Of a stretch of 50,174 nt of DNA, positions 5,834 to 50,174 are shown in pieces. Position numbers and translations under genes: made by a program. Origin of the DNA: Desulfobaccales bacterium (GTDB lineage Bacteria; Desulfobacterota; Desulfobaccia; Desulfobaccales; 0-14-0-80-60-11); assembly GCA_037481655.1 (NCBI GenBank), contig JBBFLF010000017.1, forward strand, positions 1 through 50,174, in the 5' to 3' direction. Numbering within the stretch: position 1 is the first letter of the stretch; each line of letters starts with the position of its first letter. Under the pieces are notes generated by a model. It did not search any database, was not told the origin of the DNA, and worked only from the letters and a program-made list of their open reading frames with translations.

Positions 5834-5960
5834 TGGGAGAGGGGGCCAGGGGTCATGGCCCCCTGCCCCCTCTCCCAAACCCTCACCCCCAACCCCTTGT
5901 AAGGGGGTCGGAATGCAAGGGGACGGCGGCGGAGCTTTGTTCCCCCAGCCCTCCCCTCAA
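5834..5960. repeat. Dispersed GC-rich hairpin repeat (copy C)
   Basis: The left arm (GGGAGAGGGGGCCAGGGG ... CCCCCTGCCCCCTCTCCC) is a long imperfect palindrome. It is followed by the linker CCTCACCCCCAACCCC, a small central palindrome CCCCTTGTAAGGGG (about 5893-5906), and a right arm ending CCCCCAGCCCTCCCCTCA. It lies between the convergent NamZ-type gene and mnmE and could end transcription from both sides. Confidence 0.65.
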
Positions 5961-21138: not shown

Positions 21139-21271
21139 GAAAAGAGACGGCCGGCATGGGCATCAAGGTTGGGGGAGATAAAACCTGACACTGGTGCAAA
21201 AGCGGAATCGCTGGGGCGATGGTTCTCCTGGTTCCCCGCCCATTACGGCTGACCCCTACGATATAAAAAAT

Positions 21272-21307
21272 AAAAAGAAATCGAGGCCTTGGCCTCGATT
21301 TCTTTTT
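21272..21307. terminator. Bidirectional hairpin terminator between RRM and cbpM genes
   Basis: AAAAAGAAATCGAGGCC (21272-21288) and GGCCTCGATTTCTTTTT (21291-21307) are perfect inverted repeats, giving A/T-flanked stems usable in both directions. It lies between the convergent RRM gene and cbpM. The core GAAATCGAGGC...GCCTCGATTTC recurs at 27771-27798. Confidence 0.75.
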
Positions 21308-21308
21308 G

Positions 21309-21396
21309 ATATACGGGGTGGGGGGAGAGGGTGTGGGAGAGGGGGCAGGGGGGCCACCGCTCCCTGGCCCCCTCTCCCAAAAATTTACCCTACCCC
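21309..21396. repeat. Dispersed GC-rich hairpin repeat (copy H)
   Basis: GATATACGGGGTGGGGGGAG leads into an arm in which GGGAGAGGGGGCAGGG pairs with CCCTGGCCCCCTCTCCC. It directly follows the GAAATCGAGGC hairpin, the same order as in the copy at 27688-27934. It ends just before the cbpM stop codon. Confidence 0.65.
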
Positions 21397-27687: not shown

Positions 27688-27934
27688 GGGTGGGAGAGGG
27701 GGCCAGGGAGCGCAGCCCCCTGCCCCCTCTCCCACACCCTCTCCCCCAACCCCTCGTGGTGAAAAAAAAAGGAAATCGAGGCCAGAGCCTCGATTTCCTC
27801 CTGATATACCGGGGGTGGGGAGGGGAGTGTGAGGGGAGGGCGGGGGAGCCACGGCTCCCCCGGCCCTCCCCTCACTCACACCTTACCCCCAGAGGGGGCA
27901 AGGGGCCACCGCCCCTTGGCCCCCTCCTCCCACC
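27688..27934. repeat. Dispersed GC-rich three-hairpin repeat (copy I, with extra arm)
   Basis: This is the most complete intergenic copy. The left arm (GGGAGAGGGGGCCAGGGA pairing with CCCCCTGCCCCCTCTCCC) is followed by the linker ACCCTCTCCCCCAACCCCT. A perfect 12-bp central hairpin GGAAATCGAGGC/GCCTCGATTTCC (27771-27798) comes next, then the inverted linker GGGGGTGGGGAGGGGAG, and a right arm in which GGGGAGGGCGGGGGAGCC pairs with GGCTCCCCCGGCCCTCCCC. A further arm (27893-27934) runs up to the stop of the Lon-like gene. It separates the convergent folE2 and Lon-like genes and can act as a terminator both ways. Confidence 0.75.
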
Positions 27935-46277: not shown

Positions 46278-46286
46278 TGATTCCAT

Positions 46287-46419
46287 GAGGGAAGTGCCGG
46301 GGGAGGAGTAGCTATCCTGCCCTCCCCTTGTAATCCCTTCCAACAGCCTTTAGGGGGTTGGGGGAGAGGGCGCGGGAGAAGGGGCAGGGGGGCCACGGCC
46401 CCTGACCCTCTCCCCCAAG
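46287..46419. repeat. Dispersed GC-rich hairpin repeat (copy K)
   Basis: The left part CCGGGGGAGGAG/CTGCCCTCCCC is followed by the linker AGGGGGTTGGGGGAGAGGG and a right arm in which GGGAGAAGGGGCAGGGGG pairs with CCCCTGACCCTCTCCCCC. It lies between nrfA and the cytochrome gene and probably terminates nrfHA transcription. Confidence 0.65.
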
Positions 46420-46542
46420 AAATCCGGCGCTTTCAGGGAGCTTCGGACCTCATGTCCGGGCTCCTTTTTCAGTTGACCGGGCCAAGGCCCCTGATTAAGC
46501 TGTTCCTATTCCGACCTGATTCCCATGCAAGAGAGGTGAACC

Positions 46543-47004: not shown

Positions 47005-49446
47005 TCACCCCTCCCCCCAGAGCCGCAGTTGCCGGGGCGCCGCCTCCTGCCGCGGCGCCCTGTTCCCTTTCTCCCCGCCCGCCTCCACCCCGTATAACCC
47101 CTCCTCCACCTCCCGCACCGCCCGCTCCAGGAGCTCTAGGTAGAAGGCCGCGTCATAATCCTCCAGGCCCTCCAGGAAGGGCGCCGCCGCCACCCGCAGC
47201 TCCTTGGGGCCGCTTTTGGGTTCCCGATGCACATAGCGCACCTTTTCCCCCGGCGCCAGGGTGATGCCCGCCGCCTGCAGCTGCCGGGCCGCCAGGGCCA
47301 CCGCGGTCTCCACCTTGAAGTCCTCCGGCGCCTGGGAGAGCACCCGGGTGATGACCAGCTCCTGGGGCAAAAGCCCTCCCTCCTTCAGGCGCTGGCGAAA
47401 GCCCTCCGCCACCTCCCGCAGGCGCGGCCGCAACGCCGCCAGCTCCGCGGGAGTGCCGGCCCCAGCCGCCAGCGCCAGCAAAGCCTCCTGGGCCCGCCGG
47501 ATGATCGGGGGCGTATCCCGCCGGCGGCAATAAAGCCCCCGCACCTTGAGGCTGCCGTCTTCAAAGACCCCGAAATACCTCGTGGCCACCGGCCGCTGGG
47601 GCTCCTGCCGGGAAGGCAGAAACGCCAGCCAGCGATAGACCCCCTCCAGGGCCATGCTCACCCCGGTGGCCCGGCTGATCTCCCGACAGAGCCCCTCCAG
47701 CTCCGCCCGAGTCATCCCCGGCTTCGCAATCCACAGACAGTCCGTCAGCCCATGCAACACCCGGAAGCCCGCCGCCTCGACCATCTCCTTGGCGGTGAGC
47801 AGCTTGTCCCGGCCATGGGCCGTCACCGCCTCATGGGCCTCAATGCGCCCGAAACGGGCATTCTTGTAGCCCAGATAGCCAAAACAGGTGACCAGCATCC
47901 ACTTCAAGGCATTCTGCCGCTCCCGATACGACCCCGCCCACTCCGGCTCCACCTCCCGGGCCCGGACCTTCAACCGGGCCCGCAACTCCAACAACGGCCT
48001 CAGCGTCCGGGGCACCAACCCCTCCCGCCGCCCACACAACCGATAACCGGCCTCAGGGACGGAAGCGTGGGGGCAGGGGCCAGGGACCTGAGGTCCCTGC
48101 CCCTCCCCCCACACCCCCCTCCCCAACCCGCTGACGGGGTTGGCCGGAGTCGGTGCCGACGGCACCGGCTCCGGCCGAGCTCTGCCCCCCATACGGGATT
48201 GGGGGAGGGGGGGTGGGGGAGGGGGTAAGGGGCGGCGCCCCTTAGCCCCCTCCCCCACACAGCACCCACAATTCACCGTTTCGGGGGAGATGTTGTGGGT
48301 GGTCATGATGGTGGGGTACATGGAGGCGAAGTCCAGTTCCGCCACCTGCCAGTGGAGGCCGATGGGGGGCATGAAGGTGAGGCCGCCTTTGTCGGTGGTG
48401 AGGAGGTCGCCCGCGGTTTTGAAGTCTTCCGGGGTGCCTTTGCGCCAGGGGATGAGGATGTGGTCGGCCACGGCCCGGGCCAGTTGCATGGAGGTGATGA
48501 GGGTCCCGGGGCTGGCCCGGGCGGCGCTCTGTAAAGGCATCTGGCCCAGGCGGCTGATCTGCACCAGGCCGGCCAGGCCTGCCTCCCGCCAGAAGAAAGA
48601 GTTTTTCCGGTCCACGTGCCAGCGGCCGAAGAAGGGGCAGGAGGGGCCCTGATAGACGATGCGGCCGTAGGAGAAGTAGGTGCGGCCGCCCCGGATCCGG
48701 CGGGGGGGTGGGGCGGGTTCCCGGTCCCAGGGGAGGGGCCGGCGGCAGCGCCGGCTCAGGGAGAGGAGCGGCGGGATGATCTCTTCATCCCCCCAGTCGC
48801 TCACCACCAGGTCCGGGTCCACCTGGCGCAGGAGGCGGGCCAGCTCGCCCAGGGCCTGGGCCGGGCGGGCGCCTTCCAGCTCCAGGGTGCGGCCCTCCCA
48901 GGTGAGGGCCAGGTTGTTGCCCCGGGTGAGGGGGATGAGGGGGTCCCGGGTGAGAGTCAGGTGCAGGGTGACCAAGGGGGGCAGGGAGAGCTCCAGGGCG
49001 AATTGCTCCTCCAGAGGGGCCAGGTCCCGGAGGCGGCCGCCGGCCAGCTCCAGTTCATACCAGGCGCAGGGCCATATCCCTCGGGAATAGAGGTAGTAGG
49101 CGGCCACGTCCAGGTCGGCGTTGTAGATGCCGAGGTGGTCGCCCAGGCGCCCGAGCCAGGCCTGGAGGCGGGGGAGATGGGCGTAGGCCGCGAGCTCCAC
49201 CCCCACCACGGGCAGCTCCGCGCCGGACCACAGATCCAGGCCGGTGGCGGCAAAGACCCGCCTGACTCCGGCCCGGCCGGCCGCGGCCCGGGCCAGCCGC
49301 CGGCGCACCGGGTCGCTGCCCCCCAGATAGAGGCGGTAATGAAATTCGTCCTCCACCCGTAAACGCTCCCCGTCCGGGGTGATGAACCACAGGATGATGC
49401 GGTCCCCCAGGGGATAGAGGTCGAAGAGCCAGCCGCGGGTCATCAC
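47005..49446 (-). CDS. Family B DNA polymerase with an in-frame repeat insertion
   Basis: The 813-aa protein is a family B DNA polymerase. An N-terminal exonuclease-like region (including DPDLVVSDWGDEEIIPPLL) precedes the polymerase palm. Motif A is DFASMYPTIM (372-381), motif B lies in NALKWMLVTCFGYLGYKN (K515) and motif C is HGLTDCLW (565-572). The two metal-binding aspartates (D372, D569) are kept, but the first Asp of the usual D-T-D is Leu. Residues 397-460 are translated from a 192-bp dispersed repeat and are Pro/Gly/Arg-rich. The C-terminus ends in QLRLWGEG, a beta-clamp-binding-like motif. It is the last gene after a RecA-like ATPase and an 88-aa protein, overlapping the latter by 4 bp. 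A role in repair or lesion bypass is inferred. Confidence 0.9.
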   Translation of the reverse strand: MMTRGWLFDLYPLGDRIILWFITPDGERLRVEDEFHYRLYLGGSDPVRRRLARAAAGRAGVRRVFAATGLDLWSGAELPVVGVELAAYAHLPRLQAWLGRLGDHLGIYNADLDVAAYYLYSRGIWPCAWYELELAGGRLRDLAPLEEQFALELSLPPLVTLHLTLTRDPLIPLTRGNNLALTWEGRTLELEGARPAQALGELARLLRQVDPDLVVSDWGDEEIIPPLLSLSRRCRRPLPWDREPAPPPRRIRGGRTYFSYGRIVYQGPSCPFFGRWHVDRKNSFFWREAGLAGLVQISRLGQMPLQSAARASPGTLITSMQLARAVADHILIPWRKGTPEDFKTAGDLLTTDKGGLTFMPPIGLHWQVAELDFASMYPTIMTTHNISPETVNCGCCVGEGAKGRRPLPPPPPPLPQSRMGGRARPEPVPSAPTPANPVSGLGRGVWGEGQGPQVPGPCPHASVPEAGYRLCGRREGLVPRTLRPLLELRARLKVRAREVEPEWAGSYRERQNALKWMLVTCFGYLGYKNARFGRIEAHEAVTAHGRDKLLTAKEMVEAAGFRVLHGLTDCLWIAKPGMTRAELEGLCREISRATGVSMALEGVYRWLAFLPSRQEPQRPVATRYFGVFEDGSLKVRGLYCRRRDTPPIIRRAQEALLALAAGAGTPAELAALRPRLREVAEGFRQRLKEGGLLPQELVITRVLSQAPEDFKVETAVALAARQLQAAGITLAPGEKVRYVHREPKSGPKELRVAAAPFLEGLEDYDAAFYLELLERAVREVEEGLYGVEAGGEKGNRAPRQEAAPRQLRLWGEG
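48067..48258. mobile_element. 192-bp copy of the dispersed three-hairpin repeat inserted in the polymerase gene
   Basis: Ends are inverted (GTGGGGGCAGGGG at the left, CCCCCTCCCCCAC at the right). The left hairpin is 48067-48111. The central hairpin is GGCCGGAG..CGGTGCC / GGCACCG..CTCCGGCC (48142-48176). The right hairpin has GTGGGGGAGGGGG and GGGGC pairing with GCCCC and CCCCCTCCCCCAC (about 48213-48258). The inverted linkers CACCCCCCTCCCCAACCCG and CGGGATTGGGGGAGGG flank the centre. The length is exactly 64 codons and every stop codon in the translated frame is absent, so the host gene stays open. This layout matches the intergenic copies at 27688 and 5834. Confidence 0.8.
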
Positions 49447-49709
49447 GGGGTGGACTCACCCTCCTGCGCGGCCAGCCGCTCCTTCAGCTCCGCCAGGGCC
49501 TTTTCATGCTCCAGGAGCATGGCCAGGAGCATGGATTCCAGGGGCCAGGGGCTGGCGGCATACACCCCGGCCTGCAGATGGCGCCGGGCCGCCTCAAAGA
49601 GCCGGTCAAAATGCGCCTGGTCCTCTTTCCGCAATGCCCGGCGGAACTTGCGCCAGCGTTGGCGTTCCTCCTCCCACATATAGCTGTACGGCAGAACCGT
49701 CCGTCCCAT
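49443..49709 (-). CDS. Small helical protein between ATPase and polymerase (88 aa)
   Basis: The 88-residue product has an Arg/Lys/Glu-rich helical core (EEERQRWRKFRRALRKEDQA) and a hydrophobic middle (PLESMLLAMLLEHEKALAEL). It ends with a stop that overlaps the polymerase ATG (ATGA), so the two are translationally coupled. The family is not recognised with certainty; proteins like it accompany PolB genes in related bacteria as far as I recall. It may connect the ATPase with the polymerase, which is inference. Confidence 0.75.
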   Translation of the reverse strand: MGRTVLPYSYMWEEERQRWRKFRRALRKEDQAHFDRLFEAARRHLQAGVYAASPWPLESMLLAMLLEHEKALAELKERLAAQEGESTP

Positions 49710-49721
49710 GTTCGCCTCCAG

Positions 49722-49789
49722 GGTGAGGGAGGGGGCCAGGGATCGCAGACCCCTGCCACCTCCCTCACACTCCCTCCCCCAACCCCTTA
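49722..49789. repeat. Dispersed hairpin repeat (copy M) between ATPase and 88-aa gene
   Basis: GGTGAGGGAGGGGGCCAGGG pairs with CCCCTGCCACCTCCCTCAC, followed by the linker ACTCCCTCCCCCAACCCCTT. This is the left arm and linker of the family. It sits between two genes of what looks like one operon, so read-through is likely needed. Confidence 0.6.
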
Positions 49790-50174
49790 TCTACAATGAG
49801 CGACCACTTCCACCAGCTTCCACAGATGCCGGCCGAAATGGCAGTTGGCCGCGCCCCGCGGCCGCGGGGGCTGCAGAATCAGAAGGGGCGCCCGGGCCTT
49901 GGCCGCCGCCAGGGCCTGCAAGAGCTCCCCAAAAAGCCGCCGACGCTCCGTGAGCGGCACCTGATCGTCATAAAACAGACTCACCGGCCCCAGAAGCACC
50001 ACCAGCGTCCCAGGCCCCAACACCCTGGGCAGCCGCTCCTTCGCCAAACGGACAAGCTGATGGCAAGTGAAGGCCCGGGCCACCAGAACCCGCTGCAACA
50101 CTGCCTTCGCCCCCACCCCCCACAGCGCCGCCTGCCGCACCAGCCCATATGGATCAAAGGCCTGCACCCCATCC
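49787..50174 (-). CDS. RecA-like ATPase, C-terminal part (cut by window edge)
   Basis: The visible 128 residues read DGVQAFDPYGLVRQAALWG, ARAFTCHQLVRLAKERLP, GTLVVLLGPVSLFYDDQVPL and LGELLQALAAAKARAPLLIL-type segments. FDPY, RAFTCHQL and the following beta strand with FYDD suit the core of a RecA/Rad51-superfamily ATPase of the kind paired with specialised DNA polymerases. The Walker A region would lie beyond the right edge and is not seen. The gene runs in the same direction as the 88-aa and polymerase genes. The open frame reaches the window edge, so the 5' end is missing. Confidence 0.65.
   Translation of the reverse strand, partial: DGVQAFDPYGLVRQAALWGVGAKAVLQRVLVARAFTCHQLVRLAKERLPRVLGPGTLVVLLGPVSLFYDDQVPLTERRRLFGELLQALAAAKARAPLLILQPPRPRGAANCHFGRHLWKLVEVVAHCR

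Follow-up and report, generated by a model that had tools for sequence, protein, structure and literature searches.

We find that polB2, the gene of a bacterial family-B DNA polymerase, seems to take up repeats again and again, which then become part of the protein. The case from which the analysis starts lies in the window (the whole stretch of DNA analysed, 50,174 nucleotides of contig JBBFLF010000017.1 from a Desulfobaccales bacterium), in which a palindromic repeat is read in frame through a loop of the polymerase palm. Together with the comparison of relatives, most of which are MAGs, this makes it likely that selfish dispersed repeats are tolerated in frame in three PolB2 loops, where a first insert may open its loop to later ones. 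We did not find an earlier description of a polymerase in which unrelated repeat families fill the same three loops across families and phyla, and a literature search on such repeats, in bacterial PolB2 or Desulfobacca, yielded nothing relevant.

The gene, its operon and its three loops lie in the window as follows:

47005..49446, minus strand: polB2, an 813-aa ORF with no internal stop (Pfam DNA_pol_B, E=2e-23)
47695..47709, minus strand: site 3, residues 580-584 in the loop that follows motif C, unoccupied in the window and filled in G022, G024, G012 and Poribacteria
47941..47952, minus strand: site 2, the finger-tip loop (residues 499-502), empty in the window and holding other repeats in family f8 and Poribacteria
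48067..48258, minus strand: in-frame palindromic repeat at site 1, the palm loop (residues 397-460; 192 nt = 64 codons, stop-free)
48067..48112, minus strand: terminal hairpin B of the repeat
48113..48212, minus strand: central long stem and inner hairpin, 75 nt shorter in G001
48213..48258, minus strand: terminal hairpin A, 46 nt, perfect except for one bulge (RNA -45.8 kcal/mol, z=-6.4), also present in G005 (L038) and G001
49443..49709, minus strand: PPB2, 88 aa, the upstream partner in the PolB2 operon
49723..49790, minus strand: half-copy of the window's repeat family, between iRadA and PPB2
49791..50174, minus strand: 3' part of iRadA, cut by the contig end

The gene order iRadA-PPB2-PolB2 is found at 47005-50174, and the predicted structure of the polymerase has a family-B fold with palm and finger motifs that matches archaeal family-B polymerases (best match 5mdn, E=3e-40). 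Judged by gene order and sequence group, the protein is a bacterial PolB2, a member of an archaea-derived group whose archaeal representatives act in translesion synthesis (PMC11791011, PMC12926913). It shares with the published PolB2 translesion polymerase and iRadA-PPB2-PolB2 mutasome operon its gene order, the PPB2 and iRadA homologues, sequence group and fold, whereas searches of the two papers turned up no insertions or repeats in the polymerase loops (PMC11791011, PMC12926913). The PPB2 TGA stop and the polB2 ATG overlap as ATGA at 49443-49446, an arrangement that suggests translational coupling; the true start is probably this ATG at 49443, with the listed GTG at 49446 one codon too early. 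Within the genus, the flanking halves of polB2 have dN/dS values of 0.18-0.32, well below 1, and the gene is thus under purifying selection. As its frame is kept and the PolB2 active-site motifs are retained, it does not appear to be a pseudogene, an objection that the first-pass annotation had itself raised.

The full 192-bp copy that the same annotation had placed between motif A and the VPEAGY block is present at 48067-48258, with motif A (LDFASMYPTIM...ETVNCGCC) on one side and VPEAGYRLC on the other. Its count of 64 added codons without a stop also holds, since residues 397-460 are encoded exactly by 48258-48067 and the polymerase ORF is intact. Insert-free PolB2 homologues have about 4 residues at site 1, so that the net gain amounts to about 60-62 codons. 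The copy is G+C-rich and strongly palindromic, reading as hairpin, long stem and hairpin, and its DNA fold reaches -95.8 kcal/mol (z=-9.4, with 0 of 200 shuffles as stable). An Rfam search of the insert returned nothing at gathering score, and a terminator and promoter scan of the operon found nothing inside it. In the AlphaFold2 model of the window PolB2 (mean pLDDT 86), residues 399-458 of the insert are the sole internal stretch below 50. The insert is therefore probably a disordered surface loop, and the encoded peptide is predicted to be solvent-exposed, as judged from the model's loops with pLDDT<50. Predicted disorder and purifying selection on the host gene are both in line with the earlier suggestion that the repeat is tolerated as an extra loop.

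Across the 2.87-Mb genome, 88 matches to the window's repeat family occur; most are half copies of 70 nt and a few are near-full, at 177-191 nt. The best near-full-length relative of the polB2 copy in its own genome is 79% identical (E=1e-32). Intergenic members in the window, listed without strand, are:

5834..5959: intergenic copy, absent from the orthologous place in G001
21285..21384: intergenic copy, with none found at the orthologous place in G001/G002
27691..27933: intergenic copy or copies with a terminator-like centre; G002 has a half-copy in the corresponding position, 98% identical
46286..46423: intergenic copy, a repeat-family match

The middle of some of these palindromes (27691-27879, 21267-21364) is formed by a strong hairpin rich in A/T, AAATCGAGGCC..GGCCTCGATTT, which resembles an intrinsic terminator and is itself common to more than one copy.

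A 44-kb contig of the congener G001 (L349-L351, G001:C63) is syntenic with the window and carries a single copy, inside polB2; the same syntenic stretch of the window has about six intergenic copies beside the one in polB2. The second congener, G002, has its own set of intergenic copies, with one intergenic place in common with the window. Intergenic copies come and go, and the polB2 copy persists. We inspected 29 other copies with their flanks, scanning the spanning ORFs at ten loci and judging the remaining loci by ORF inspection alone, and one lies inside a Pfam-supported gene, that of hydantoinase B. This second in-frame full-length copy of the genome (L002, G000:C20:7151-7335) follows THLPDLTLVAAM and has the opposite orientation to the polB2 copy; the site is empty in most relatives, and two have short G+C-rich loops there, including an unrelated 28-aa loop in G001. 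Genome-wide dispersal, the turnover of intergenic copies between congeneric species and the separate copy in hydantoinase B all agree with the first-pass view that the repeat is or was mobile. Across six near-full copies, 12 of 36 frames are open; an open frame is thus unremarkable for this repeat, and what selection would require is that length be kept in step. Target-site duplications were found at none of six copies, the two ends of the repeat being inverted hairpins, and six near-full-length copies contain no GTAG/CTAC tag and only scattered CGTC.

We then searched relatives in the window's family (f1, Desulfobaccaceae-type by record titles) with the polymerase halves before and after the insert separately. 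Site 1 is filled in all ten members in which both halves lie on one contig, with gaps of 189, 177, 168, 165, 141, 114, 141, 276, 93 and 48 nt, compared with 9-15 nt in insert-free relatives, and five more members have contigs that break off within the insert. The window copy therefore marks an old, family-wide occupied site, and the clean 192-bp gain that the first-pass annotation had expected against relatives is not seen. Although the two halves were located separately, each of the 14 complete site-1 inserts has a length divisible by three (a chance of about 2e-7 for random lengths) and an open frame.

The content of the site differs across the family. Both species compared from the window's own genus (G001 and G002) hold recognisably the same element, and in G005 hairpin A is 96% identical to that of the window. 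Within the palindrome, the polB2 gene of G005 (L038, L086) also appears to be broken by a sequence whose inverted ends are IS-like (ATAAGCGCTAACTTAAG / CTTAAGTTAGCGCTTAT), and both contigs end there. Genus g7 holds a different repeat (GGGGAAAAGG...). In g7 genomes only its core (32-135) is dispersed, unlike the 31 nt before it and the 30 nt after it. At their 3' ends the g7 inserts are more similar to the window's repeat, at its own 3' end, than shuffled sequences are, whereas their 5' ends taken alone are not significant. Given a dispersed core between ends of this kind, a younger repeat is probably nested in the older one. Other family members carry repeats of the CAGTGGCC type, the GTAGGGGCGACCC type or further types, unrelated to each other and to the GGGGAAAAGG type. 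The first-pass annotation had named equally long, unrelated segments in orthologues as evidence against its reading, and such segments do occur in other genera (141-276 nt). They prove to be dispersed repeats of other kinds, and some of them sit within remains of the window's repeat.

An alignment of 69-75 PolB2 proteins, in which insertions of at least 10 residues were considered, places nearly all of them at three tip loops: site 1 in the palm, site 2 at the finger tip and site 3 after motif C. Without inserts the spacings are nearly constant, at 4-8, 37-41 and 27 residues respectively. Nearly every member of family f8 (Syntrophaceae-type records) has an occupied site 2, with content that differs genome by genome; the insert of one member, L076, is built of three repeats, all of them dispersed both in that genome and in sister genomes. 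The AlphaFold2 model of L076 places this insert (433-469), its sole internal stretch with pLDDT<50, at the tip of the two finger helices, and it is predicted to be a disordered surface loop. The most extreme case among the PolB2 proteins examined comes from Poribacteria (L096:3001-6048), where all three sites are filled. Dispersed repeats of several types make up most of the roughly 250 residues added there. More than 100 added residues lie in the finger-tip region, where site 2 holds several repeats that recur across its own genome. Site 1 is filled in two Bacteroidota PolB2 genes, and a site-3 insert lies in a single-contig 3.28-Mb genome (G024, L044). In the cases tested, the inserts are dispersed repeats within their own genomes. 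On a tree of the PolB2 core without inserts, occupancy changes at least five, three and three times at sites 1, 2 and 3 (at least 11 in total), and the changing content of filled loops implies more events than this. Sister lineages without any insert are G023, f10, f20 and most of f28. A supposed Acidobacteriota case (L090, JAIQGC010000137.1, labelled Terriglobia) was rejected, as its PolB2 falls inside f8 in the tree and the contig is therefore misbinned or transferred. We also rejected hairpin structure as a conserved feature: RNA folding is strong for several inserts (z -5 to -9), and two site-2 inserts, L073 and L091, are unstructured (z -0.4 and -1.1).

The control genes have no such inserts. 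RNase R and a Lon-type protease of the window, compared in the same families at about 58-80% protein identity (similar to PolB2), have no in-frame insertion of at least 12 residues, and the same holds for PolA and MutS in 23 genomes of f1, f2 and f8, N-terminal ORF extensions aside. Within the operon itself, PPB2 has no insert in about 85 orthologues, and iRadA has one long in-frame repeat insert (47 aa) plus a few short ones. The long one, in an f8 genome (L088:898-1602), lies between core strands, and the shorter ones are in L089 and L095. Since hydantoinase B and iRadA also carry in-frame repeats, PolB2 is an outlier rather than unique; moreover, PolB2 evolves faster than some of the controls, so weaker constraint may explain part of the contrast.

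The reading of the first-pass annotation, a single recent and clean insertion of a mobile repeat into an uninterrupted polymerase gene, draws on the fact that the polB2 copy is full length, strongly palindromic and so little decayed, and on hydantoinase B as an example, in the same genome, of a nearly clean in-frame gain. It is refuted by the shared occupancy of every readable family member, and the element is common to both congeners with a nearly identical hairpin in G005; we regard it as highly improbable. The recurrence of three positions might instead reflect site-specific targeting, in which elements recognise particular DNA at the loops in a homing- or attachment-like manner. This is very unlikely: the same sites are used by unrelated repeat families, the three sites are mutually dissimilar, f2 and f20 have similar site-1 DNA and yet are empty, and the six copies show no target duplication. 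The last of these points, together with the fact that no transposase was identified, counts against the preferred reading of tolerated selfish repeats as well. The inserts might also be selected, with mRNA hairpins throttling expression of a mutagenic polymerase or loops modulating the mutasome. Occupancy kept over a whole family, the strong RNA folds of several inserts and the retention in G001 of the polB2 copy as the only one in 44 kb would all fit such a role. However, sequence, length, site and hairpin character all vary freely, L073 and L091 have no structure, and the insert-free sister lineages do without; selection of this kind seems unlikely, and these points speak against loops with a regulatory or adaptive function. 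It is also rather doubtful, if conceivable, that polB2 attracts or preferentially keeps repeats, either by capture coupled to SOS-induced, template-switch-prone repair with PolB2 or through loops that tune the mutasome. If the latter variant were true, unrelated repeats would have been recruited repeatedly as raw material for the same functional finger-tip and palm loops.

Two further readings question whether the insert becomes protein in a working enzyme at all. Inteins are known from archaeal PolB genes, and the window insert likewise lies between polymerase motifs, which could point to an intron- or intein-like element that is removed. Yet it has only 64 codons, no Rfam match and neither a splicing domain nor an intron core; frame and stop-free reading are kept in all complete cases, and the inserts lie in variable loops outside the catalytic motifs with unrelated fillings, making removal the least probable of the readings considered. 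A pseudogene or an assembly artefact at repeats is scarcely credible either. Many contigs do end inside the insert, and the G005 gene is apparently interrupted by IS-like sequence, but contigs are continuous in at least 10 genomes, the site-3 insert of L044 lies in a single-contig genome, and the kept frame, low dN/dS and retained active-site motifs all argue against this reading.

Among known repeats, the closest precedent is that of the Rickettsia and Wolbachia palindromic elements (RPEs and WPEs), by likeness in behaviour and not by demonstrated membership. As in that kind, the window's repeat is a dispersed palindrome read in frame and stop-free within an intact host gene. RPEs are known from protein-coding genes (Ogata 2000/2002; review PMC10969869; PMC3767692) as dispersed palindromes of about 100-150 bp, inserted in frame without ORF loss in solvent-exposed regions, and the orthologues of some Rickettsia genes contain RPEs of different groups at nearly one position (PMC3767692). 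The present repeats differ in occurring in Desulfobacterota lineages and at least two other phyla, in that several unrelated families occupy a single polymerase at the same three loops, in being read in both orientations (the polB2 and hyuB copies) and in having no dedicated coding frame (12/36 open). By its very G+C-rich composition and its host, the window repeat is unlikely to be an RPE proper. WPEs sit in frame in, for example, addA, addB and priA; they too are palindromes at several, hard-to-align places in DNA-repair genes that they do not inactivate, but they belong to one endosymbiont genus, and we found no report of cross-phylum recurrence at homologous sites in that account (PMC4224334). 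With REP/BIME/REPIN elements (GTAG/CGTC-tagged; PMC3733652) the family shares palindromic units, single halves, inverted pairs with a variable centre, many copies and a mostly intergenic location, whereas the window repeat has about 190 nt, two 46-nt hairpins and no GTAG/CTAC in the copies examined. Short non-autonomous MITEs, such as Coxiella QMITE1 and the enterobacterial RU elements, can likewise fuse in frame with host ORFs (PMC10969869); the window repeat is similarly short and read in frame within a host ORF, but no target-site duplication was found at the six copies.

We therefore return to tolerated selfish repeats as the likely explanation. PolB2, a non-essential, translesion-type polymerase whose three tip loops tolerate added sequence, would have received a selfish, non-coding palindromic repeat in frame in one of its surface loops, where the repeat would be translated as a disordered loop. 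Repeat families active in each lineage would insert at many places, and within genes only in-frame, stop-free copies in tolerant loops would survive purifying selection. Once a founder insert had made a loop long and disordered, later repeats could settle inside it or take its place with little penalty, and each lineage would keep its own loop with changing content: site 1 in f1, site 2 in f8 and site 3 in genus g10. The transposition route and the neutrality of the inserts are, like this founder effect, conjectural steps, and the founder effect cannot be separated with present data from lineage-specific loop tolerance.

Dispersed palindromic repeats that become protein are now seen outside Rickettsiales. 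PolB2 provides a replicated natural experiment, with one enzyme, three loops, many unrelated fillings and empty sister lineages for comparison. It can be used to test directly if selfish DNA in coding loops is neutral, if one insertion makes a loop permissive for another and if repeats that are lost between genes can find a refuge inside them. The inserts also amount to a natural insertion map of a translesion polymerase. Finally, the presence of repeats in polB2 explains why assemblies of these genomes break inside this gene.
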